A stretch of 64,000 nucleotides of DNA from Sycon ciliatum (taxonomy: Eukaryota > Porifera > Calcarea > Leucosolenida > Sycettidae): assembly GCF_964019385.1 (NCBI RefSeq), contig NC_088643.1:76899747-76963746 (forward strand). Direction: 5' to 3'. Below the pieces are notes generated by a model. It had not been told where the DNA came from, did not search any database, and saw nothing but the letters and a program-made list of their open reading frames with translations. How positions within the stretch are numbered: the first letter of the stretch is position 1; the number at the start of each line of letters is the position of its first letter. This document shows positions 7,101 through 56,699 of the stretch, in pieces. A program made the translations under genes and the position numbers.

Positions 7101-9733
7101 GAATATTGCTCAGGATCGCTCCACAATTACTCTCACATAGTTTCTAAAGGATTGGATAACAGACGCCCAATTTGGAAAAATTTATGCACAAAGTGATCAC
7201 AGATTTTATGTGGTATAGATGCTGGCATAACGGTTTTTGCCTAGGTACGCGTCTATAGTTTTGAAATGGACTGTAGTTCTTAGTCTAGTTCTCTGTGCCA
7301 TTTCACTTCACCATGCCGTTAAAATGATATGACTTTTAAATACTTCAGTATGTCCGTTGCCATGTTACTATGATTATGACGTGTACGTCAGTACCCGGTC
7401 TTGCTATCTCGATGACATGGGCCTACTTTGAATGCCAACACTCGACTGAAGAGCATGATACTGTCTTCTCTTGCTTGGCTAACTGTTGAGTAACGACACG
7501 CATCATCGGTTTGTTGCCCGCAAGGATCTCTCTGCATCCATGTTGGTCTCCGTGTATGTGACTGGTCTGCACAATGGTATGGGTAAGTGCTTGACATTCT
7601 TGCATTGAGTGATTCATAAGTCAGGTCGTAACCCAGTACTGACTCATGATGGCAACTTCACATCCTTATGCACTTTGTGAAATGGCCATATACTGGTGAC
7701 CAGTGAGCGCTAAAGCCTAAATGCAGTAAAGGCACAGTTGAGTGTCCGATTCCTGCATGACCATTCGGCATGTTCTCAGGATCCTGTTGTAACCTCTTCA
7801 AATCTGTGCATGTGTTAATCAGAGTGCATATGCCTGTATCACTGACTGTATCACTGAAACCTATCCGGCATGTACAGGTAAATGCAATTTTCATGCACTT
7901 TCTATGACTGATGTCTAACACTATGATTGGTAGAACCTCTGTATGGCTAGGGCTAGCGTAGCATTGCAGACTATGCTAGTTGTCACTGAAGTAGGCATGT
8001 ACTTGTTTTGTAAATGGAATGTTTTACAATCCCGTCAAGTTCTCATGACCTAAACCTATTAACCATAGTGAGCAACCCCTAGCTAATAACGATAGTGCAT
8101 GAAACCAAGAGTGTGCCGCTTCAGTGGGTTGCTGTCAAATCAAAATTCCTTGACTACATCATTAAATGATGTTGTGACGTAGTACATACAGGCAGGATTC
8201 AAGCAGGTCTCCCGCTGCACAACTGCAGCTCAGTCGTACGCACTATGCCACTTACCACCGCTTATCTGCATCAACGATGATGTAATCAAATGATGATGTG
8301 ATCAAACGATGATGTAATCTAGGAATTCTCTGTGATAGACACCCATGCAGAAAGAGGCACGAGCGTTTCTAACTCCTGCCTCTGCACATCTTGTACAGCC
8401 TTGCTAATATGTAATAACCACGCTCAATAGTATTGTGACATGTACATTGATACTAGCCATGGTAACCAAATGGCAATTACATGTACTCATGCTTAGCAAG
8501 TACAGTCATGTACATTGCTATGAATCCCATGTGTAAATGCCGTAGCGTATCTTGCCTAGAGATGCCACAATGTCTACCTTTACCTCTTTGATGTGCATGA
8601 AGATATTTTGTTATCCATGCTAAAGATGTCTACATATGAACTATGCATGAGTGGATGTAGTTAGTCTCTCGACCAGTGTACTCGATTGAACAGAGATTGA
8701 ACGGTGGAAATTTTAGCGCTGTTGTACATACCGGTGCAAATCTTTACATAGAAATGCTTTATCGGATTCTTTATTAGTACGGTAGGTACAGGTGCTCCAT
8801 CATGTGATCTTCAGCTATAGATGTCTGATTGTGGTGTGTGCACATGTGTGCCTACCTACCTGATTATGGCGTGTGTGTGTGTGTGTGTGCGTGCGTGCGT
8901 GCATGCCTGCCTGCCTGTGTAGGTTGGTCCCGGTCCAGCTTTGTTTGGACTGATGGCGTGCCTGGTTGTGGATGCTGTCAAGGAGCGCCACCTGCTGGAG
9001 AGACCGTGGAGAGAGGTCACCAAGATCTTGGCCATTGTCACCTTGGCAATCTTCATGGGCTTTCTGCCATTCATTGACAACTATGCTCACGTCGGTGGCT
9101 TCGTCATGGGATTGTTTACATCGGTGCTTTTCGTCCCTTACATTGGGCAGTCTCTTGCTGGCGTCAATGACGAAGGCCATGCGTTTAGCCGCGTGGAGAA
9201 ACGCTGGTTCCGCCTGTACCACATTGGTTCTCTGGTTGTTGCTTTCCTTGCCATTGTAGCGTTCTTCTTGCTATTCTTCCTGCTGTTCTATGACGTCCAG
9301 CCGGCTTGCAAGAACTGCAGCTACTTCAACTGTATCCCGCTGACGAAAACGCTTTGTGATGATCTGGCGGTGGACCTTTCGACCAGATCCTGCCATGTGT
9401 GTCAGAACTAACCATGGCCAACATGTACTTGAACTTTCTTGGGTTTGTGTGGGTACTCTGGTGATGGCTATGGTATCACTGCAAGTGTTACTGCATGGTC
9501 GACGGTGAGATCGGCGGTATGTCAAGTTCTCTCAGCCTAGCTGTGCGTTCCACGTCTCTGTCTCTGAAAGCTGACGCATTTGCCTATGGTGCCATACTGT
9601 GTGATGGTGTGCGCGTGCGCGCATGTGTGTGTGTGTGTGTGTATGTGTGTGTGCGTGTGCGTGTGTGTGTGTGTGCGTGTGTGTGTGTGTGTGTGTGCGT
9701 GTGTGTGCGTGTGTGTGTGTGTGTGCGTGCGCG

Positions 9734-9778
<45 letters not shown>

Positions 9779-12700
9779 ACGTGCGTGGTTTTGAGGTTGA
9801 TGGTTTGTCACAGTCCGTATATCTCAACTCAGCTGTGCACACACGGTGTGGAAGTGCAGCTTTGATGTAGAGTCGTGTTCGGGTCAGAGTGGACTCTGCA
9901 TTGCACAACCCGGCAAATGCCTACCACCCGGTCGGAATATCTTTCTACTGCCTGCCATTTAGTCAGTCTATGTACCAGCTGCTCTACCGACACCAGCAGT
10001 TTACATAGTAATATCTGCCCAAAGATCAACGCCACCGAACAATGGTGGTGCCGTGCTGGACGATCCCAGTATACAATGCTGTAGTTACAAGGAATCAAAG
10101 CCTGGGTTTTTATTTTTAGAAATCACTACAAGTACTTGTGGAAGTAATCTTCTGAGTTGAAATTTATCAATCCTTAGAGTTTCGGATTGGGACTTGTTGC
10201 CAGAGTTCTCCTGCACATACCTTTTCTATACGTGTACTTGTATCAAGTTCCTAGCTTCTGCCATCAATTCCAATTTTCGTTTCTTAGGATGACACCACAT
10301 CAAGGGAGAGATCAATCCACCATAGGTACGGCTGAGAGCCAAATGAAAGTGAGCACTACGTACAGGTCATGATCTCAGTGTAGCTCCCGCACGTAGTGCA
10401 ACGGTACTAGGAGTGTACTGTGTAATGGGACATTGGAAGCTGGTGAAGCATGAACTCTTCTTGAGCCACCGCCCCTTGCCAGAGAACAGTGCATGGGCGA
10501 GTGAGTTGCGCAGAAATGTGACCGCAAAACGAGTGGGACCAAGCCAACCACTCGTACATTGCTTCAGGTCACTCCACAGGTCTCTCGCTTTTTCTCAGGA
10601 ACCACATTTGCGATGAACGAATCACGGTTCTCACCATGTTTTGTGGAACATTCTGATGTGTGTGAAGGCACGTACTGGAGGTGCAAGAGTAGTGCTCTAT
10701 TCTGGGACGCCTGCAAGTCCTTGTTACCGGTTGTTTTGTGTGTAGTCTGTGAACTTCAATAAGAAATATATATTTCTTATTGAAGTTCACATTTGTTGAG
10801 TATTGTGTGTGTGAAGTTTTACCAAGGTCTTCGAATTTTGGGAATATCCTGATGGGGTCAAGTTTCTCTGCGCCTCACAGTTCTGCTCATCTCTCATTCT
10901 ACAGGGGCGTAGCAACTGGCTCGGCCGGTCCGGCCAAAGCCGGACCACTTTTTTTTATAACAAAATGCCGAAAGTGCCCAGAATGCAGGATTTTGCACCC
11001 TATTTCAATTTTTCCCGGAGGAGCCCCCCCCCCCCCCCGCACCCCCCTTCGGCCGGCTCCAACAGCGGTGCTATGCGCCTGTATTGATTATCTGATTCAC
11101 TAGAAACAAACTCAGAGGATGCTGTTCGTTCTCTGTGGTGGTGAACTAATAACCATGCCGGTCAGTGGGAAGTGAGGATACCGGTACCTGTATTGTGTAA
11201 AGCATGTCATTACCATGCTTGACTGTAAAGCCATTATCCGTCCGCACAGTCAAAAATTGACGACTATCCGTCGAAGACTTTAGCAAGCGGTAACTCTCTA
11301 ATTTCTTATCCGATTTGCACCATTTTGATCTCAAAAGAAGCAGGAAAGACCCATCTTTCCTTTGCAAAACCCGGAGTAGGCCTTGGCGGATAATGCCGGC
11401 AGAAAAATTGGCAGAATTCGGTATTTTTTCTGGTAGGTTTCATGCATGTTTGGTATGTGGATAAAGAAATGGAGCCGAATTCGAGGAATTGCCCACCATA
11501 AGGTTTGTATGGTTCTGCCGATTTCACTGCTTTTCGAGCAGAATCTGCCACCTTTTCGAGCATTATCCGCCAAGGGCTAACCCGGAGCACCGCATCGGGC
11601 TCCAAAGAAAAGTTACACGCCTCCAAAGTTGGGAAATTTTCACACCATGTATGAAAAAAGGTTCCGCATCATGAAACCGTTTAAAATGATAATGGTGCCA
11701 TCCAAAAACTATGCCGGGAGGCTTCACTGATAGTAGATTCAAAATTTGATAGCATAAAAGTACAAGTTTGAGACCACAAACAGTCCACATATTGATAAGC
11801 CGGACTTCTCTTCAAAAATTGGGGCTGGGGAAGGATTTCTGTTCCTCTTACGAATAAATGCTAAGAAAGGTCGCTAGAGAACTCCTCATGCCCGGTCAAG
11901 CTTTCCAAAAAGCCCAAGAGTACCAATTTCCCCCAAGGGAAACCGAAGTTATCATAAAAATGGTACGCGGTGTGTCACCGGAACTAAGAATTTTTCCCCT
12001 TGGTTCCCCTTGGTCGGACGGATAGTCTTAAAAAGAGTCAAAATGAACATGTGAAATGTGTTATGCATGATGCTATGTGGGAATTCTTTCAAATTTTGCT
12101 AAATCCAAGTTTGAGTGTACTCTAGAAGTCCGTGCCATACACCCGTGGGTGTTTTTCATTGCACTATCAGGTTTCCACGGTCGTAGTCTATGTATGGCCT
12201 GCAGAAGTAAGCATGACGGGGGGGGGGGGGGGGGTGTCATCTCGTTGCCTCTGCTTCTTATTCATTTTTAATTAGTCACTCGTGATACTGGCACTGATGC
12301 ATGACCCAAGTGCTGTGTATGCATGGGTAGGCGGGTTGACCCTTTGCTGGGTGGAACTACCTACAAGCACTTGTTTTCGCCGGTGTTCTCATACAATTTG
12401 TGTTACAGGTTGGACCAGGTGGAGCTCTCTTTGGTTTGCTGGCCACTCTGTACATCGAGATCATACAGCAGTGGAGTACGCTGGAGACGCCAGGAGAGGA
12501 GCTCTTCAAAGTGTCTGCTGTCGTGCTTTTCCTATTCGTGGTCGGCCTACTGCCCTACGTGGACAACTTTGCCAACATCAGCGGCTTCATATTTGGCTTG
12601 CTGCTGGCCGCCATCTTTGTTCCGTTCCTGCAAGTCAACCGCAATCCACATGCGGCTCTCTCCGGCGAGGCCCACGTCGAGCCGGACTTGCGCAAGAGGA

Positions 12701-12906
12701 AGATCATCATGATTGCCGTGGCAACGCCGATTGTCATTGTCCTGTTCGTCCTGCTCTGCGTCTTCTTCTGGGTGGTGCAGGACTGGAACTGCAAGTGGTG
12801 CCGCTACCTGAACTGTGTGCCGCTAACGGAAACTCTGTGCCAGGATCTCAGCCAGGACATACGGCAGCCACGCTTTGTGTACAACCTGGCACCATCCCTC
12901 GGCTAG
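171..12906 (+). CDS. RHBDF: iRhom (inactive rhomboid) gene, 3' half, with two alternative terminal exons
   Basis: iRhoms are catalytically dead rhomboid-family membrane proteins of the ER/Golgi that guide clients such as ADAM17 and EGF-family ligands. Exons at 171-338, 1283-1470, 2443-2506, 4173-4337, 4884-4984 and 5417-5570 join in phase and match the order of the human iRhom C-terminal half as remembered: [11 protein letters not shown], a Cys-rich lumenal region, [41 protein letters not shown], the transmembrane helices and FVPYQAE. Either 8923-9411 or 12409-12906 then supplies the last helices, giving about 442 or 445 residues in this window. The residues following the FVPYQAE/V junction are GPGP or GPGG instead of the rhomboid GxSG, so the catalytic Ser is absent, as in all iRhoms. 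The N-terminal cytosolic part lies before the window. The family call is firm; the alternative use of the two last exons is inferred. Confidence 0.92.
844..1024. mobile_element. Short TIR element (MITE) in iRhom intron
   Basis: About 180 bp bounded by TACAGTATAACC and a right end TTTTACTGTA. The interior carries repeated GACCACCT / GGTGGT motifs. The ends resemble the CAGTGAAACC-type elements at 29139 and 61094. It is non-coding. Confidence 0.5.
1060..1170. repeat. ATCATGTGATCATGCT-type minisatellite
   Basis: About seven imperfect copies of a roughly 14-18 bp unit built on the palindrome ATCATGTGATCAT. It is intronic. Confidence 0.85.
1283..1470 (+). CDS. RHBDF: iRhom exon: Cys-rich lumenal segment
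   Basis: 188 nt after CTGCAG, starting [13 protein letters not shown] and ending [10 protein letters not shown] with donor GTAAGC. It enters at phase 0 and leaves two bases that join the next exon. It matches the iRhom segment with a conserved TSG-VC-QDP. Confidence 0.9.
1793..2400. repeat. 18-bp minisatellite, about 33 copies
   Basis: The unit GGATATGTTCCTATGCAT repeats almost perfectly. The 3' third changes to a GGATATGTTTCCATGCAT variant and then to a 23-bp form with an added GATAT. It ends about 40 bp before the acceptor of the exon at 2443. Because 18 is divisible by 3, every frame stays open and gives false repetitive proteins on both strands. Confidence 0.97.
2443..2506 (+). CDS. RHBDF: iRhom exon: short WVDDISRWP segment
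   Basis: 64 nt between GTTGTTCAG and donor GTAAGT. The first base completes the codon from the previous exon. It encodes SCIRPAS, then [11 protein letters not shown], matching the human segment with PDDITKWP. It leaves phase 0. Confidence 0.88.
2546..3606. mobile_element. hAT-like DNA transposon remnant with CAGGGGCGTAG ends
   Basis: The left end CAGGGGCGTAGGCAGG and right end CCTGGCTACGCCCCTG are inverted repeats of a type widespread on animal DNA transposons. A short direct repeat, TCCATC, lies at both edges. Poly-G, poly-T and (GA)n tracts are inside, with a short reading frame at 2981. The whole copy lies in an iRhom intron. Confidence 0.6.
2981..3214 (+). pseudogene. N-terminal remnant resembling hAT/TTF-type transposase proteins
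   Basis: Starts [14 protein letters not shown] and continues with a Ser/Glu/Asp-rich stretch. This resembles the short Lys-rich start and acidic linker of hAT or zinc-finger MYM-type transposase proteins. It ends after 77 codons with no zinc finger or catalytic core. It lies inside the element at 2546-3606, which supports a transposon origin. The call rests on a short motif. Confidence 0.35.
4094..4164. repeat. (GT)n microsatellite abutting the iRhom acceptor
   Basis: A near-pure GT run with one AT interruption ends eight bases before the AG of the exon at 4173. Confidence 0.95.
4173..4337 (+). CDS. RHBDF: iRhom exon: GRPCC lumenal segment
   Basis: 55 codons, phase 0 at both ends, acceptor CTTCTATAG, donor GTATGC. 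It contains [16 protein letters not shown] and [17 protein letters not shown], which follow the Cys spacing of the iRhom homology domain. Confidence 0.93.
4479..4593. repeat. Perfect hairpin: 53-bp arms, 9-nt loop
   Basis: The left arm (4479-4531) and right arm (4541-4593) are exact reverse complements around the loop CTCTTTGTA. It lies in an iRhom intron. Such perfect arms suggest a recent foldback event or a minimal foldback element. Confidence 0.93.
4884..4984 (+). CDS. RHBDF: iRhom exon: [10 protein letters not shown] segment
   Basis: 101 nt after TTTTGTTAG. It encodes [10 protein letters not shown] and [18 protein letters not shown], the conserved lead-in to the second transmembrane helix. 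It leaves two bases before donor GTAAGT. Confidence 0.94.
5330..5424. repeat. 40-bp tandem triplication covering the 3' splice site
   Basis: CAACAGCATNTTGCATCT recurs at 5331, 5371 and 5411, exactly 40 bp apart. Only the third gives the iRhom reading frame. Use of the second adds 40 nt and soon reaches a stop. Confidence 0.9.
5417..5570 (+). CDS. RHBDF: iRhom exon: core transmembrane helices
   Basis: 154 nt; the first base completes a Gly codon. It encodes [34 protein letters not shown] and [15 protein letters not shown], which are the rhomboid core helices before the (dead) active-site loop. It ends at phase 0 with donor GTGAGT, the branch point for the two alternative last exons. Confidence 0.95.
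5605..5732. repeat. G-rich low-complexity tract
   Basis: Several runs of 9-12 G separated by short GGTGGAGG-like spacers lie directly after the iRhom exon. G-quadruplex formation is possible on the transcribed RNA. Confidence 0.8.
5898..6700. mobile_element. Inverted-repeat element in iRhom intron
   Basis: ACTTGGTCCGCGTCAG with the following 20 bases at 5898 returns inverted at 6664-6700 with few mismatches. About 730 bp of non-repetitive, apparently non-coding DNA lies between. No clear target duplication was seen. Confidence 0.55.
7019..7275. mobile_element. MITE, about 257 bp, TA-flanked
   Basis: The ends TACAGTGCATTTCAAAAC and GTTTTGAAATGGACTGTA are inverted repeats that extend inward through ATAGACGCGTA. 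The TA edges fit a Tc1/mariner-type target. It lies in an iRhom intron. Confidence 0.75.
7276..8820. other. iRhom intron without recognisable gene
   Basis: No coding exon was recognised. On the minus strand around 8190-8265 a tRNA-like stretch carries TGGCATAGTGCG (A-box-like) and GCTTGAATCC (B-box-like), which could be the head of a tRNA-derived SINE. Short ATGATGT repeats lie at 8270-8320. Confidence 0.4.
8923..9411 (+). CDS. RHBDF: iRhom terminal exon, version 1
   Basis: 162 codons plus stop, phase 0, after the acceptor CTGTGTAG at the end of a GT/GC repeat. It encodes VGPGPALFG, then helices [32 protein letters not shown] and a long final hydrophobic segment, then a Cys cluster ([17 protein letters not shown]). 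The rhomboid Ser position is lost, but the helix-6 His is kept in NYAHVGGF. About 60% of positions look shared with version 2 by eye. It ends [10 protein letters not shown]. Confidence 0.93.
   Translation, partial: VGPGPALFGLMACLVVDAVKERHLLERPWREVTKILAIVTLAIFMGFLPFIDNYAHVGGFVMGLFTSVLFVPYIGQSLAGVNDEGHAFSRVEKRWFRLYHIGSLVVAFLAIVAFFLLFFLLFYDVQPACKNCSYFNCIPLTKTLCDDLAVDLSTRSCHVCQN
9604..9790. repeat. (GT)n/(GC) microsatellite
   Basis: About 180 bp of GT repeats with scattered GC, downstream of terminal exon 1. It produces false open frames of Val/Cys or His/Thr repeats. Confidence 0.95.
10748..10791. repeat. 44-bp perfect palindrome
   Basis: TGTGAACTTCAATAAGAAAT and its exact reverse complement meet at an ATAT centre with no loop. 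It lies between the two iRhom terminal exons. Confidence 0.93.
10901..11083. mobile_element. MITE with CAGGGGCGTAGC-type ends
   Basis: Left ACAGGGGCGTAGCAACTGG and right CGGTGCTATGCGCCTGTA are imperfect inverted repeats. Subterminal CGGCCGG motifs mirror each other, and a poly-C run of 15 lies near the right end. Related ends occur at 2546. Confidence 0.6.
11377..11579. mobile_element. hAT-type MITE, 203 bp, with 8-bp target duplication
   Basis: The termini TAGGCCTTGGCGGATAATG and CATTATCCGCCAAGGGCTA are inverted repeats with one mismatch. The 8-bp direct repeat ACCCGGAG flanks it at 11369-11376 and 11580-11587. The termini resemble those of the larger hAT-like element at 34126. Confidence 0.85.
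12409..12906 (+). CDS. RHBDF: iRhom terminal exon, version 2
   Basis: 165 codons plus stop, phase 0, acceptor TTTGTGTTACAG. It encodes [14 protein letters not shown], then [33 protein letters not shown], a Lys/Arg-rich loop, a last helix with [16 protein letters not shown], and [15 protein letters not shown]. The GPGG motif is closer to the GPAG of known iRhoms than version 1. The usual helix-6 His is replaced by Asn (NFANISGF). It sits about 3 kb after version 1 and takes the same splice phase, so either can follow the exon ending at 5570. Confidence 0.93.
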   Translation, partial: VGPGGALFGLLATLYIEIIQQWSTLETPGEELFKVSAVVLFLFVVGLLPYVDNFANISGFIFGLLLAAIFVPFLQVNRNPHAALSGEAHVEPDLRKRKIIMIAVATPIVIVLFVLLCVFFWVVQDWNCKWCRYLNCVPLTETLCQDLSQDIRQPRFVYNLAPSLG

Positions 12907-13076
12907 ATCCTCTTGGCCCTCTTGATAGCCTATGAGTTTATAGACCTCATTGACACTGTTTTAGTCCTGACATTAGCTCAAGAATTATGATTTTGTCCGA
13001 CTTAGGTGGATTCACATACTGAACGAATTTAATTTAAGTGCATGTATGCATCCTGTTGCAGCTTGTCAGTGTGTTA

Positions 13077-31180: not shown

Positions 31181-32199
31181 TGGCGTGCAAAGCGCTAAAT
31201 CCATCAGCGTTCCCTTTTTTCCCTAAATCCCTGCGTGATTTAACCCTAGTATCTCTGAATTGTCGCTCTGTTGTCAACAAGTTGTCTGAGCTCTGCGTTA
31301 TTGCAGAATGTGCTAAGCCTGACATAATCTGCCTAACAGAGACGTGGCTCTGTCCCTCGAACCCGCTCTCACTGTCAGGCTATATCTGCATCCGCAGAGA
31401 TCGACCTCCGGAAGACAATCGGTCTGCACATTGTAGCCGTGGGTATGGGGGTGTTGCCGTACTTGTCCGTTCGGATTCCTTTCCATACGTCTCCCCTCGT
31501 GCCGACCTTCAACGCGCCTGGCTGCGAGTCTGTGTGGCTTGAACTTGGCTCCCCCTCTACTCAATCTCAGAATCCCATCTTACTACTTCAGTATGCTGCA
31601 TGTATCGACCACCCTCACAGAGCACAATGCAATTGTCGTACTTTTGTGACATGTTTGTTGAGGCATTACAGTCAGTCTGTTTGGATTCTTATGATCTGTT
31701 AGTGACTGGCGATTTCAACACCCACAACTCAAGCTGGTGTCCCACCGATTCTACCTCGAAGGCTGGTGATCTCCTTAGCACAGTACTTGCTGCTCTTGGG
31801 CTCCACCAGATGGTTGACTTCCCCACTCATTCCTCACCTAATGGCTCTGTTTCATGTCTGGACTTGGTGATCACCAACCGACCACGCCTCGTGCGCTCAA
31901 TTGATCAAGCACCTCCCTTGGGTATGTCTGACCATATACAGATTGTTTGCACTTTATGTTACGCCCCTATTTCGAACTACTTCCCCAACTCTTCCACTGG
32001 TCCTCCCTCTTCACTGTATCGCTTCAAACAAGTACCTTCGCACCTTTGGCAATTAATCAACGCTGATTTAGCTGGCTACAACTGGTCCTCTCTGAACTCG
32101 TACACTGATGTTTTAATGACGCACTTCATCACTTTGATAGTGAGCTCCAGTTCGCCTTCCGTCGTCACCTCACCTCATTCGGAGCCACCCACACTGTGA
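31180..32199 (+). pseudogene. LINE ORF2: endonuclease domain
   Basis: Begins MACKALNPSAF. Endonuclease motifs in order are LTLVSLNCRSV, IICLTETWL, LLVTGDFNTHNSSW and MSDHIQIVCTL, the AP-endonuclease catalytic set (Asn, Glu, Asp-Asn, Asp-His). Two frameshifts lie around 31500-31600 and the frame ends at 32199, before the reverse transcriptase. It nicks target DNA in the live family. Confidence 0.85.
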
Positions 32200-33480
32200 C
32201 ATCTTCACGACCCCGCATGCAGTCTCCACCATGGGTTACTGCTGAGCTCAGGTCTGCTGTAAAACGCAAGCGTGATCTATATAGTGTGTACAAAAAATAT
32301 CCGACAGCAGTAAATCATGCAGCTTATAACTGACAAAGGAATGCTGTAAAGCACCTGTCTCGGCAAGCACATCGTCAATATATACGCTCCATCCAAGCAT
32401 CACTAACGTCACCGAATCGACCTACGCTCTTTCAGTTTGTGCGAGCACAGCGGCACACTTCCGGCCGTGTCATGCCCCAAACGATGATAGCATCCGACGG
32501 TACGGTCGCCACATCCCCCAAGAGCATAGCTGATGTTCTGAACACGCAGTTCATCTCATTTGGGCTACCTGATGATCCTTCGTGGCGCATTCCCCCTTTG
32601 TCCCAGTTGCCTTTCATATCTGTTCCGTTCCGTACAATCACTGTCACTACGTTTCAAGTTCGGAAATATCTGAAGCGCCTGAAATGTGGAAAGTCTCCCG
32701 GCTCAGATGGGATCCCGAATGAAGTGCTGCAGTCTCTTGCACCATCAATAGCCTATCCTCTCGCCATTCTTTTTAATATGTCATTTCGAACTGGTACATT
32801 CCCACAGGATTGGAAATCCGCCATTGTGACACCGCTTTACAAGAATAAAGGCTCCCGTGCTTGCCCGGCAAACTACCGCCCCATCTCTCTGCTGCGCACA
32901 GTTTCCAAACTTTGTGAGCGTATTTTATTCGATTCCCTCTACCTGCACATCGCTCCGGCTCTCTCACCAGCTCAGTCGGGATTCTGCCGTGGTGACTCAA
33001 CTCAATACCAGGTGACTCGACTTGTCCAAGACATAGCGACAAAGAGGAACTGTGGGGAGCACGTGGGAATGGTGTTTTTCGACTTGGCTAAGGCATTCGA
33101 CACCGTATGGCATCGTGGCTTACTTGCCAAGTTGGAGGTCACCTTCCGGGTGGAGGATGCTGCCTTGCGTTGGATATCATCGTATCTGTCTGCTCGTTCT
33201 CAGGCTGTTCGCTTGTCCCATTTCTTGTCTGATCCCCTCCCTGTAGCGTCTGGAGTGCCCCAAGGTTCCATTCTGGGTCCTTTGTTATTCTTGCTTTACG
33301 TTAATGACCTACCTTCAGTTGTCCCCGATGTTAGTTTGTATGCGGATGACACTGGCCTTATCTGTTCTGATTCCTCCCCTGCACATTTCTCCTTGCCATG
33401 CAGCATCTCATCAACAGCACTGTCATGTGGATGCAAACGTGGAAACTCCAGCCCAATTTAGACAAGACAGAAGCCATGTA
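32200..33480 (+). pseudogene. LINE ORF2: reverse transcriptase domain
   Basis: Open from 32439, with a linker in the same frame from about 32140 broken by a TGA near 32332. Motifs: KCGKSPGSDGIPNEVL, ANYRPISLL, QSGFCRGDST, VFFDLAKAFDTVWH (motif A Asp), SGVPQGSILGPLLFLLYVND (motif B), SLYADDTGL (motif C, YADD). A frameshift follows at about 33400. Confidence 0.92.
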
Positions 33481-34108
33481 TATTTCTTCATCCCCTCCTG
33501 GTGAACCATTATACTTCCCTGACTCGACTATGCCTATCCGTGTTGTTACTCAGCACAAACATCTCAGTGTGATGTTTGACTGCAAACTCTCTTGCGCTGC
33601 ACATGTCAACTGTGTATGCAAGCGAACCAGTTCAGCATTAGGGGTACTACAACCACATTGCACTCATTTGCCCATCCAGTGTAAACTATTATTTTATCAG
33701 TGCTATATTCTCCCTATATTCGACTATTGCGATACCGCTTGGTGTGGCCTTTCTGACGCAACTCTGAACCAATTAGAAGTCCACCATAGATTTATACTTA
33801 AAATTCTTTACAACAAGGATCGATGTTTTCCATCGGATGCCCTTTATCGACTTGCACACACTTCTCTTCTCTCCGTTCGTCATAAGCACCATCTCTGTAC
33901 ACTGGTTCATAAAATATTTCTTCATAAAACCCCTTCACACATGATGAAGTACAATTGGTTTTCGACAAGCTCAACCCGTAACGCGCTCATCCTGCCTCTT
34001 GTTAAGTCAGCCCAGTATCTAAAGTCCCGGGCCCTTGTTTTCCGGTTACTCTCATTGGTTATCATTACCATACGGTCTGAAAACTTGTTCTTCTATTGGT
34101 CAGTTTAA
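33398..34108 (+). pseudogene. LINE ORF2: thumb and C-terminal region
   Basis: Continues in a new frame: MWMQTWKLQPNLDKTEAMYI, then GVMF-like FDCKLSCAAHV, and LPIFDYCDTAWCGLSDATL. This is the usual region after motif C of CR1/Jockey-type ORF2. It is cut by the MITE at 34126. Confidence 0.85.

Positions 34109-43898: not shown

Positions 43899-43933
<35 letters not shown>
43740..43933. mobile_element. LINE/SINE tails with (ATT)n
   Basis: (TTA)n at 43741-43762 followed by GGGCAATCCCCACATG on one side, and CAGGAACTAATAAAG followed by (TTA)n at 43897-43933 on the other. Probably two short retroelement 3' ends, or one element with tail duplication. Confidence 0.5.
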
Positions 43934-49530: not shown

Positions 49531-50281
49531 TTGATGACATACGTGGGATAGGAAAACTGGTAAGAGAGGGCGGAAGAAAAAAAGAAGAGTAAAAGAAAGG
49601 AAAAAGAAGAAAGAAATTCAAAACTAGATTGAAGTGTATGTACGACAGGAAGTGCAACGACTTACGAGTTGGGGATCTACAAGGAAAGCCAGACTGCAGA
49701 AAGTTGTGAATAATGACTAGGATTGTGAGGTGCTGAAGATAGAAAGGATAGCGGTTTTCATAGGTTGAAGTTAGATGTACTACATGCACATGTATATTGA
49801 ATACACTGACATCTGTACAGTCATGTACATCATCATACGGTACATGCGAAGGTGGCGCAGCACTCTTCACTTGTTGGGTGACTATGCCTGTGCTTGTGTG
49901 TCTACATGCACAAAGAAAGGTTTGCCGCAAATTGACCGATATTATACATGTACATGGCAAAGGAGTAAGTGTTGGCAAAGTGCCCGATGCACAGAGTGAA
50001 GAGCGTTTCAAACGAGAAGGAGAAATAATAATTGGGCCAGTTTGGATTTGTCGTAACTCGAAGTGTCATGCTACTGCCGCAATCATCAGACGACATGTAC
50101 ATGTACATGTACATGGTGTATTACAGATCCATGTACAGTTTTGGAGTACTAAATCTCCGTACAGAACTGTTTCCTCCTTTGTGGACTCATCAGTTGTGGA
50201 GTGTACATGTATATACACGTGTTATAATTATAATTATAGAAAAATGTTCGATAGCTCAAGAAAAGAGTAGGGCGTGCACGC

Positions 50282-50716
50282 GTGTGTGACCCTCGCCGTA
50301 CCCCGACTGTCTTTGTTTTGCGGCACGCTAAGTTATACTCCCTCGAATCTCGTCTCAACTTGAGGCTTTTTATTTTTGTTTTCCGCTGTATTCATCAGCT
50401 TACAAGTCCTCTTCTTTCCTCAATGTTCACCCTCCAGTCGGCTGCTACTTGCACCGAGAGGCGCACTAGAGGGCAATCATTCTCTTCACTTTCTTTGCCC
50501 GCTGCTACCACTAGATATGGCATGTTCTCCATTTCTTTCCTTGGCGCTGATAGGTGGAATTCTCTGCCTGTCTCGTGTCGTCAGGTTGAGCATCTATCCG
50601 TTTTTGTTTCGCTCTGTAAAGAGCACTTAGGGTTCCCTGTAACAAGACGGCAACGTCTGTAGGGCCTTCCCTATCAAAATAATAAATTCTACTACTACTA
50701 CTACTACTACTACTAC
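50282..50716 (+). mobile_element. LINE ORF2 C-terminal fragment with (TAC)n tail
   Basis: LRHAKLYSLESRLNLRLFIF, SFSSLSLPAATTRYGMFSIS and GADRWNSLPVSCRQVEHLSV form the end of ORF2, stopping at 50662. AATAAATTC and a run of CTA/TAC triplets follow. 5'-truncated. Confidence 0.75.
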
Positions 50717-51359: not shown

Positions 51360-51430
51360 TGTTATTAGGCGTCTGCCTGTTTTGGTTTCTCCACTATAAA
51401 TAAAAGAATACTACTACTACTACTATACTA
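51360..51430 (+). mobile_element. LINE/SINE 3' tail with (TAC)n
   Basis: GTCTGCCTGTTTTGGTTTCT then AAATAAAAGAATACTACTAC resembles the tail at 50670-50716. Confidence 0.5.
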
Positions 51431-53780: not shown

Positions 53781-55085
53781 ACCGCAGGCATCTCTATTCC
53801 TGGTGGTCCTGTTATGCAACTGAGTCCATTGCCTCCTTTCACTGTTGTGTCGTGTGTTGACACGGCCCGGTGTACAAATCCAATGCCTATGTTACATGTA
53901 TAATGCAGTATGTAGGGCACTAGGCATCACGAACACACCTCTCTAGCTGCATCATGTGCATGATCAAATGCCAAGCTTCATACACATAATGGTACACTAT
54001 GATGATTGTAATGTAGTGCAACAAAACTAAAAATAATAGACCGAATTCAGTAAACTTGATCTGTTCCGGAATTCCTGCATCCTAAAGAAGCGATCGGATA
54101 GCTCAGTTGGACCGTCGATGCGTCCTCATGGCTGTCGCAAAACATCAAGGGTAAGAAAAAAGGTCTAAGAACGTGCAGCCTGCAGGATAGGCGCGTGTAG
54201 GCGGGCGACATTGGGGAATGTGCATCACGCTTCTCTCCAGCTGAGAGCTGCTGGAAGACCACCCGACTGGTGCATGTGGACGGCCTCAGACTCGTGGTTA
54301 CACAATGCACCGGCATCAGCATTGGCTTATCACCAGTGCCACTGCCAGTGGGCCAACGACGTGAAGCATCAGCCGCCCTCGGCATGCGTTGGGAGGTGAA
54401 GCGAAGCTGATCAGGGTCAAGCCTGCCCTCTTGGAGTCTTGGTAATAGCAATGTTGACAGTTTGCCAGGGTGTCAATGACGTAGCGCACTGCTGTCAGCA
54501 CTGCGGCTGTGTAGACAATCACGAGATCCGCAATAGTCATTCTTGACAGCTGCTGCCAAACCAACACGACTGCCAGCACTAGCAGAAACCTGTGAGGTTT
54601 GCGACAGCACCCCGTTGACAGGACTGGGACTGAAGGAATTCTCAGCACCAGGACTGTCTGTAGATATCTACTATGAGCTGCGGCTTGAAAGTCGCAAACT
54701 GGCATCCAGCAGACTTGCAAGAACAGAACAAGATAGTTATGCTGCCATCTGCTAGCCACATACTGTTTATTTCCGTGTTCTGCCGGTTCACAATGCTCAA
54801 TGGTCAAAGCACCTTCTACATGTACCGGGCACTTGATCACCCCTTCGATCTCCGATCTCCATCCCAGACTGACTGGATGCCACGAGTCGATGGTATAGTC
54901 AGTCTACCAAGTATGCCTACCATTGAGTACGATTATGCCGGTCTACAGCAAATGAAGCATACTTGCAATGCAGGGGCAGGGAGTCGTATCACCTACATGT
55001 ACATGTAGATCTACGACTTGTGACCTCTTCTATTTTTTTCGAGAGAGACGACCCGGGCTGCCGATTCCATCCGCGTTCGGAGTCA
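53781..55085. other. Stretch without recognised gene
   Basis: No gene recognised. Overlapping open frames on both strands at 54047-54840 match no family known to me. A TACATGTACATGTAG repeat lies at 54993. Confidence 0.4.
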
Positions 55086-55089
55086 GCAG

Positions 55090-55165
55090 ATCAATAATAA
55101 TAATAATCTTTATCACTCCCTTAGTATTGACTCACATAGATTTTTGCAATAATAATAATAATAAA
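55090..55165. repeat. (AAT)n tail of minus-oriented ribozyme element
   Basis: Two (AAT)n blocks at 55094-55107 and 55149-55163. Read on the minus strand these are (ATT)n directly after the element end at 55166. Confidence 0.8.
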
Positions 55166-55304
55166 GGTTTGCTCCCCACACCGGAGCTCGCGCTATTCCG
55201 CCGACTTTACTTGACACTTGACTGACTCACGACTGCCATCCAGAGCACACGAGAAGTCCATCGAACCTTCGACTCGGCAAACCTGCAAGAAAGCACCACT
55301 CCCT

Positions 55305-55350
55305 GCTCAATACACAGTGTTTCGGGGAATTCACCCCTCATCAGTTGAGC
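55305..55350 (-). ncRNA. Type I hammerhead ribozyme, copy 1
   Basis: Read on the minus strand: stem I GCTCAA, core CTGATGA, stem II GGGG-TGAATT-CCCC, core GAA, stem III ACA-CTG-TGT, cleavage-site A, stem I' TTGAGC. Every invariant core position is present. All three stems are perfectly paired; stem III is only 3 bp, as is usual for retroelement hammerheads. Confidence 0.92.
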
Positions 55351-55781
55351 TTGAGTAGGCTGAGGAAGATTGTGCCTGAAGAGCACCACTTATATAGTGC
55401 TCTCCAGGCACAAACATCACCAGGGATACAAACTTACAGAGACGCTCCGCTTCCAGCGCGATAAACACCTCGTGAACACCAGATAGCAGCGTGAGTCAGT
55501 GTCGCTCCTGGACGGTGAGACAGACGTCGAGGACCCTCGGTCATTCGCAACGCTGTCACCTCCAAACCAACTAGTCGCAAGCCCGCGCTGGGCACAACAG
55601 TACGAAGTAGTGGTTGCGACTTCGGCGATGATTTGTAAGAAAGGTTTGCTCCCCACACCGGAGCTCGCGCTATTCCGCCGACTTTACTTGACACTTGACT
55701 GACTCACGACTGCCATCCAGAGCACACGAGAAGTCCATCGAACCTTCGACTCGGCAAACCTGCAAGAAAGCACCACTCCCT

Positions 55782-55827
55782 GCTCAATACACAGTGTTTC
55801 GGGGAATTCACCCCTCATCAGTTGAGC
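55782..55827 (-). ncRNA. Type I hammerhead ribozyme, copy 2
   Basis: Identical to copy 1, exactly 477 bp away. The transcript between the two cleavage sites would be a 477-nt RNA with the ends left by hammerhead cutting. Confidence 0.92.
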
Positions 55828-56175
55828 ATCAGTTGAGTCGAAGGTTCGATGGACTTCTCGTGTGCTCTGGATGGCAGTCGTGAGTCAGTCAAGTGTCAAG
55901 TAAAGTCGGCGGAATAGCGCGAGCTCCGGTGTGGGGAGCAAACCTTTCTTACAAATCATCGCCGAAGTCGCAACCACTACTTCGTACTGTTGTGCCGAGC
56001 GCGGGCTTGCGACTAGTTGGTTTGGAGGTGACAGCGTTGCGAATGACCGAGGGTCCTCGACGTCTGTCTCACCGTCCAGGAGCGACACTGACTCACGCTG
56101 CTATCTGGTGTTCACGAGGTGTTTATCGCGCTGGAAGCGGAGCGTCTCTGTAAGTTTGTATCCCTGGTGATGTTT

Positions 56176-56215
56176 GTGCCTGGAGAGCACTATATAAGTG
56201 GTGCTCTTCAGGCAC
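56176..56215 (+). promoter_or_regulatory. TATATAAG in the loop of a 15-bp stem
   Basis: GTGCCTGGAGAGCAC and GTGCTCTTCAGGCAC pair with one mismatch and expose TATATAAG between them, about 20-60 bp upstream of the hammerhead. It could be a TATA box of the element or an RNA hairpin. The same block lies inverted at 55372-55411. Confidence 0.45.
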
Positions 56216-56236
56216 AATCTTCCTCAGCCTACTCAA

Positions 56237-56282
56237 GCTCAACTGATGAGGGGTGAATTCCCCGAAACACTGTGTATTGAGC
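56237..56282 (+). ncRNA. Type I hammerhead ribozyme, copy 3
   Basis: Stem I 56237-56242, CTGATGA 56243-56249, stem II 56250-56263, GAA from 56264, 3-bp stem III to 56275, predicted cleavage after A56276, stem I' 56277-56282. ACTC (56231) and GAGT (56286) can extend stem I beyond an internal loop, giving the loop-loop contact seen in fast natural hammerheads. Confidence 0.93.
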
Positions 56283-56463
56283 AGGGAGTGGTGCTTTCTT
56301 GCAGGTTTGCCGAGTCGAAGGTTCGATGGACTTCTCGTGTGCTCTGGATGGCAGTCGTGAGTCAGTCAAGTGTCAAGTAAAGTCGGCGGAATAGCGCGAG
56401 CTCCGGTGTGGGGAGCAAACCTTTCTTACAAATCATCGCCGAAGTCGCAACCACTACTTCGTA

Positions 56464-56490
56464 ATAATAATAATAATAATAATAATACCA
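56464..56490 (+). repeat. (TAA)n tail
   Basis: Eight to nine TAA units end the plus-oriented ribozyme element. Confidence 0.9.
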
Positions 56491-56699
56491 CAGCACGCGT
56501 ACAAAGGCCAAAGAACAATGCATGAGAATACACTGAAATTAAGCCAAGTCCGCTTCTGTCTCCAGTCAACAAAAAACTCATCCATAAACAATGTCTGATC
56601 TCCATTTCGACTTGTCTGCAGCAAATGCTCGTGCTCCTTCTAGGTCGCTGGCATTCTTCAAAGGAATGTCGTGCCCTGCCAGGTCCTTCATGATGGTGG

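Follow-up and report, generated by a model that had tools for sequence, protein, structure and literature searches.

The Sycon ciliatum DNA analysed here, a stretch of 64,000 nt (the window), contains an insert of ~1.3 kb in which a non-coding 477-nt unit with a minimal type I hammerhead motif is present as two head-to-head arms, each longer than one unit, inside an (AAT)n microsatellite. We consider it probable that this is a young, ORF-less, pLTR-only element that was moved in trans by a Penelope-like element (PLE), via double-primed reverse transcription of a circular or multimeric RNA. The ingredients are known, and their new combination bears on which enzyme moves animal retrozymes.

Insert anatomy and hammerhead motifs

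The locus had been described as a head-to-tail array. The insert instead consists of two head-to-head arms (minus strand, 665 nt; plus strand, 629 nt) derived from one 477-nt unit, and forms a near-perfect inverted repeat with 594-nt arms (Table 1). Because it is an inverted dimer, its third hammerhead has the opposite orientation. The reported spacing of 477 bp holds for both minus-strand hammerheads, and only on this strand do two hammerheads flank a full unit. The right end had been placed at 56490, just beyond the microsatellite (56462 to 56488). From cleavage site to cleavage site the unit has 53.7% GC, in surroundings of ~46%.

The left arm shows no mismatch to the unit, but the unit was derived from this arm, so only 188 nt constitute an independent comparison. 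The right arm differs from the unit at one position in 629 nt (55997). Such similarity between the arms points to one event or one near-identical template, and the low divergence suggests a very young insertion. In both arms the 477-nt unit closes on itself seamlessly. At the inner junction, ATCAGTTGAG is a second copy of the 10 nt that end one base before it, and its last three bases, GAG, are also part of the right arm. The outer limits are blurred by bases common to the target: the first 3 nt of the left arm (55163-55165, AAA), so that the arm may begin at 55166, and the last 2 nt of the right arm (TA), which puts its end at 56461 or 56463.

Table 1. Features of the insert and its flanks (positions in the window)
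Feature	Position	Strand	Basis
Left flank, (AAT)n target microsatellite, 17 nt	55148..55164	.	sequence
Left arm, inverted: unit positions 438-477, 1-477, 1-148; 665 nt, 1.39 units	55163..55827	-	
Type I hammerhead, minimal form	55305-55350	-	motif search
Sole complete unit bounded by two cleavage sites, 477 nt	55311..55787	-	
20-bp hairpin with TATATAA motif, left-arm mirror copy	55370..55413	-	location; fold from plus-strand copy
Minimal type I hammerhead; its first base coincides with the inner end of the left arm	55782-55827	-	
Inner junction ATCAGTTGAG	55828..55837	+	sequence; overlaps direct repeat D2 from 55835
Right arm, direct: unit positions 36-477, 1-187; 629 nt, 1.32 units	55835..56463	+	
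20-bp hairpin, 4-nt loop, TATATAA at 56191-56197, 40 nt upstream of hammerhead	56174..56217	+	fold, location
Type I hammerhead, minimal form; cleavage expected after A56276	56237-56282	+	
37-nt extension at right outer end, absent from left outer end; similar to the PLE 'tail' of PMC11167929 and PMC3846280	56425..56461	+	sequence, fold, PMC11167929, PMC3846280
Right flank, (TAA)n/(AAT)n microsatellite, in phase with left flank when joined	56462..56488	.	

All three perfect hammerheads of the original prediction were recovered in place and on the expected strands, with standard pairing throughout. Each comprises a 6-bp stem I, CTGATGA, GGGG-TGAATT-CCCC, GAA, ACA-CTG-TGT, the cleavage-site A and the 3' strand of stem I, giving in every case a stem II of 4 bp and a stem III of 3 bp with a 3-nt loop. 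The type I hallmarks are present: a core of CUGANGA...GAA...H, three helices and an opening at stem I. Stem I consists of six continuous core-proximal pairs and lacks a loop 1 within the motif found. Being copies of a single sequence, all three together provide one independent motif. With stems of at least 6/4/3 bp, the motif did not occur in 100 order-1 Markov simulations of 64 kb, in which looser 4/3/3 stems gave two matches, nor in 1,600 simulated sequences of 64 kb (102.4 Mb).

Rfam 15 returned no family at the gathering threshold across the whole window and no hammerhead at E≤10 in region 55000-56600; at E≤1, the whole window gave 36 matches, none of which corresponds to these three hammerheads. 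When 56225-56295 was scanned alone, RF00163 (Hammerhead_1) aligned to 56237-56282 over model positions 1-45 with 20.5 bits, against a gathering score of 34 (E 0.0036 for the 71 nt scanned). The original prediction had named the lack of a covariance-model match above threshold as grounds for its refutation, and formally that is the outcome (20.5 versus 34 bits). We do not take the low score as a refutation: no part of the core, the stems or the cleavage site is missing, and the alignment spans the model from its first position to its last.

Neither the 46 nt alone nor the circle has the hammerhead as its computed minimum-energy fold, which counts against our reading; within the circular fold of the unit, forming the hammerhead costs only 2 kcal/mol. 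Stem III is near self-complementary, and an 8-bp pairing of two copies with a single U-U mismatch is possible (-9.5 kcal/mol, 14-nt duplex). PLE hammerheads are reported to cleave as dimers, and the modelled pairing through stem III would be consistent with such cleavage.

A fourth hammerhead-like motif lies at 50159-50199 (-), where RF00163 scores 25.4 bits against the gathering score of 34 (E 0.0002 on 161 nt and 0.079 on the window). It has a G-G at the base of stem II and a poorly pairing proximal stem I, its sequence is unrelated to the 477-nt unit, and it is possibly a decayed element or a chance occurrence.

Within the window, the best candidate for a diverged copy of the unit was a 17-nt match (E 0.62). 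Exact-pattern scans found 0, 2 and 0 loci in viral contigs, both of them judged unrelated, and 0 and 0 loci in GTDB genome contigs. The two IMG/VR loci (L001, 13472-13498 (-), and L002, 899-925 (+)) share CTGATGAGGGG-N6-CCCCGAAACA. In both, stem I is closed by a hairpin before the core, which is a different hammerhead topology, and neither reaches the Rfam threshold; we take them to be phage hammerheads unrelated to the element.

Outer ends, transcription and coding content

The insert abuts AATAATAATAATAATAA on the left and TAATAATAA... on the right, in the same direction, and the joined flanks make one in-phase (AAT)n run. Runs of the AAT type of at least 12 nt form nine pieces in the window, both flanks included, and amount to 163 nt (0.25%). 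The repeat had been interpreted as an unusual (TAA)n tail of the element. An RNA-encoded tail should end both arms in (TAA)n, which fails for the left arm: in the RNA sense its terminus reads ...CCTTTATTATTATT, the end being CCTTTATTATT and not (TAA)n. The shared direction of the repeat on both sides and this left-arm end together indicate that on the left, at least, (AAT)n belongs to the target; on the right, priming could have added part of the repeat. The bases shared at the borders (AAA on the left, TA on the right) would allow priming by short homology. Given insertion inside a microsatellite, a target-site duplication is unrecognisable.

The outer ends fall at unit positions ~148 and ~187, an offset of 37-39 nt. 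The extension present only on the right contains a GAAGT/ACTTC inverted repeat around an AC-rich loop, forming a weak hairpin (-5.5 kcal/mol). The comparison of this offset with the PLE tail was made post hoc and on one copy, and an offset of 30-40 nt can arise by chance.

Elsewhere in the window, (TTA)n and (CTA)n runs directly follow AATAAA-like motifs (43900-43933, 50689-50716 and 51400-51420, all +). Trinucleotide runs in this position would be expected of the 3' tails of other retroelements, and such tails may supply (AAT)n targets.

Each arm carries the sequence TATATAA within a 20-bp hairpin; by this motif, at 56191-56197 in the plus-strand copy, the hairpin is a possible promoter. With start sites placed by TATATAA, each outward transcript would contain one hammerhead, and only a minus-strand RNA spanning both hammerheads of the left arm could release a full 477-nt unit. 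The circular fold of the unit has -200.6 kcal/mol (z -5.1 against 60 shuffles), with 72% of positions paired and without the hammerhead.

The longest stop-free frames in the doubled unit are 89 aa forward and 80 aa reverse. Judged by these frame lengths, and by Pfam for a 44-aa frame, the unit holds no RT or GIY-YIG ORF; lacking both, the element is at most a non-autonomous PLE derivative. The 44-aa frame (56246-56377, +) is opened by an ATG inside the hammerhead core, is of a length not unusual by chance and has no Pfam match at E≤1. The ORF of the anole PLE begins at the ATG position in the hammerhead core (PMC11167929). No PLE protein was found among the 13 of the window's 33 stop-to-stop frames of at least 150 aa that were scanned with Pfam.

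The window also contains a LINE-type retroelement (31543-34108, +) with an endonuclease (PF14529) and a reverse transcriptase (PF00078); it is apparently broken, as the two domains lie in separate frames. Two rhomboid-domain exons (8923-9411 and 12276-12935, +) are separated by ~3.4 kb, which suggests tandem duplication of a rhomboid gene.

Origin of the insert

Several properties described for PLEs bear on how such a structure could form. The purified anole PLE cuts and extends both strands, most often at 5'-ATT-3', and starts reverse transcription inside the RNA, within an AC-rich stem-loop; the optional genomic 'tail' of 30-40 bp is the stretch between two reverse-transcription start sites (PMC11167929). 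As reported in PMC3846280, an adjacent inverted pLTR is typical of Penelope insertions in Adineta vaga; in Pen2a_Av one inverted pLTR has a 31-bp tail, and the inverted pLTR is 37 bp shorter than the direct ones. The same source describes foreign sequence framed by pLTRs that was integrated in trans.

On the reading we prefer, movement in trans by a PLE, unit RNA with its minimal type I hammerhead would be present as a circle or as an uncut multimer. Multimeric transcripts would be cleaved by the hammerhead into units of 477 nt, most efficiently with two copies paired via their near-palindromic stem III. Both strands of the (AAT)n repeat would be cut by a trans-acting PLE reverse transcriptase/GIY-YIG endonuclease. 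Each cut end would then prime inside the unit RNA, on opposite sides of the short AC-rich stem-loop; the end points at ~148 and ~187 are read from the insert, and we infer that they served as priming sites. Both cDNAs would run more than once round the unit and be joined at GAG with re-copying of 10 nt, seen in the insert as a duplicated stretch, and the head-to-head structure would result.

A single linear template for both arms would, by arithmetic, have to contain at least three unit junctions with uncut hammerheads, about 1,181 nt. As both arms exceed one unit and a 477-nt circle needs no uncut junctions, a circle is favoured; a circular RNA template is also the retrozyme model (PMC7229834 Discussion; PMC7761336). 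An uncut multimer could still have served, since hammerhead mutants of the anole PLE inserted in vitro and, in the account given in PMC11167929, no RNA-seq ends were seen at the cleavage site. The two observations also mean that hammerhead processing or circles may not be needed.

The insert might instead be a canonical animal (non-LTR) retrozyme moved by a LINE, with a circular RNA copied by the LINE reverse transcriptase, ordinary twin priming, an accidental offset and a (TAA)n that is partly a LINE-type tail. The window does contain a LINE with endonuclease and reverse transcriptase domains (31.5-34.1 kb), and at 43.9 kb a (TTA)11 follows AATAAAG, a placement that is a habit of LINE-type tails. 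Both LINEs and PLEs are named as possible helpers in PMC7229834, and the non-coding hammerhead unit, copies over unit length and a highly paired circular fold are as described there. Against this, the unit is longer (477 nt versus about 170-400) and richer in GC (54% versus under 50%) than the retrozymes of PMC7229834, stem I has no loop, and (AAT)n keeps one direction across the insert; we regard LINE-driven movement as unlikely. A distinctly unlikely origin, in our judgement, is deletion or recombination of an ORF-bearing PLE, the unit being a pLTR of a local autonomous element and this copy a by-product. In PMC3846280, pLTRs do stand direct and inverted round PLE ORFs, and captured sequences occur between solo pLTRs. 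No ORF remnant is seen here, however (longest frames of 89 and 80 aa; the 44-aa frame without a Pfam match), and seamless closure at 477 nt in both arms is what an ORF-less RNA template would give.

The head-to-head structure could also be ascribed to snap-back, in which one cDNA primed itself and only one target end was used. This has been proposed for A. vaga Penelope, with palindromes at inverted junctions (PMC3846280), and a small inverted repeat, TCGAA-GG-TTCGA, starts right at the junction here. Yet a simple snap-back should continue from its turning point, whereas unit position 36 opens the right arm and 438 the left. In addition, the left outer end passes straight into (AAT)n, the 37-nt extension being absent there, which suggests a priming event of its own; we consider snap-back very improbable. 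Two independent insertions in opposite orientation are ruled out, as no (AAT)n lies between the arms at the inner junction and the arms are identical at all but one of 629 nt. A near-perfect inverted repeat such as this one, with its 594-nt arms, is a common form of artefact. We nonetheless reject a fold-back artefact of sequencing or assembly and give it hardly any credence: neither flank is an inverted copy of the other, the end points differ both outside and inside, and one mismatch separates the arms.

Relation to retrozymes and Penelope-like elements

What moves animal retrozymes is stated as open in the Discussion of PMC7229834, where autonomous PLEs are a strong candidate on grounds of shared hammerheads, tandem copies and co-occurrence. 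The present locus adds evidence of a different kind, a PLE-like end anatomy on an ORF-less hammerhead unit. We found no description of a PLE tail on an ORF-less hammerhead unit in the open-access literature searched, which is weak evidence of absence. Should the end pattern hold across copies, counting genomic end points would settle the question, and the PLE tail would become a marker for trans-mobilised RNAs.

A more far-reaching idea, which we put forward tentatively and hold to be possible rather than probable, is that retrozymes and PLEs are one system. A Penelope pLTR would have been set free, and its hammerhead-processed 477-nt circle would be copied by the PLE enzyme from two fixed starts beside the AC-rich stem-loop; the two ends left by cutting an (ATT)n site would serve as primers, and copying would roll round the circle from each side. 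If true, ends 37-39 nt apart, arms of more than one unit and an ATT target would together be a genome-readable fingerprint of PLE-driven circle retrotransposition.

So, is this a retrozyme? The original assignment to the retrozyme or Penelope type stands as far as anatomy goes, that is, for a non-coding 477-nt hammerhead unit, a retroelement-type insertion, the kinship and the lack of an enzyme of its own; length and GC fall outside the described retrozymes. Those of coral, mussel and axolotl (animal non-LTR retrozymes) have units of ~170-400 nt with GC under 50%, and earlier surveys cited in the same paper give 150-450 bp (PMC7229834). As in these retrozymes, the unit is non-coding, carries a type I hammerhead, occurs as more than one unit in tandem (1.39 and 1.32 per arm), is highly self-paired as RNA and depends on foreign enzymes. 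Unlike them, it measures 477 nt (versus about 170-400) with a GC of 54% (versus under 50%), shows no stem I loop in the motif found in place of the canonical hammerhead with loop 1-loop 2 contacts, and is inserted as an inverted dimer and not as a head-to-tail array. The Schistosoma SM-alpha/W-elements similarly have minimal hammerheads with an extremely short stem III in repeats; in PMC8490949 they differ from our element in being satellite- or SINE-like, arrayed on one chromosome or dispersed.

Set beside PLEs, the copy differs in lacking an RT/GIY-YIG ORF, in a unit that closes directly on itself, and in a target that is a pure (AAT)n microsatellite with an unreadable duplication. The parallels with the pLTRs of the Penelope/Poseidon clade, as described for PAc of Anolis and Pen2a_Av, begin with the head-to-head inverted arrangement. 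They extend, on the one copy available, to the offset of 37-39 nt, comparable to the optional 30-40-bp tail on one inverted end, and to the ATT/AT-rich target, here (AAT)n in either flank. A minimal type I hammerhead in a terminal repeat, with a 3-bp stem III and without a stem I loop, is likewise shared, and this minimal kind is the one reported for PLEs (PMC7229834, PMC7761336, PMC6155905). The pLTRs of A. vaga also have a TATA motif readable both ways and a palindrome (PMC3846280), which TATATAA in a 20-bp hairpin matches here. On present sequence evidence we file the insert as an ORF-less, PLE-type hammerhead element that displays the testable end-anatomy features of PLE pLTRs and probably works like a retrozyme.
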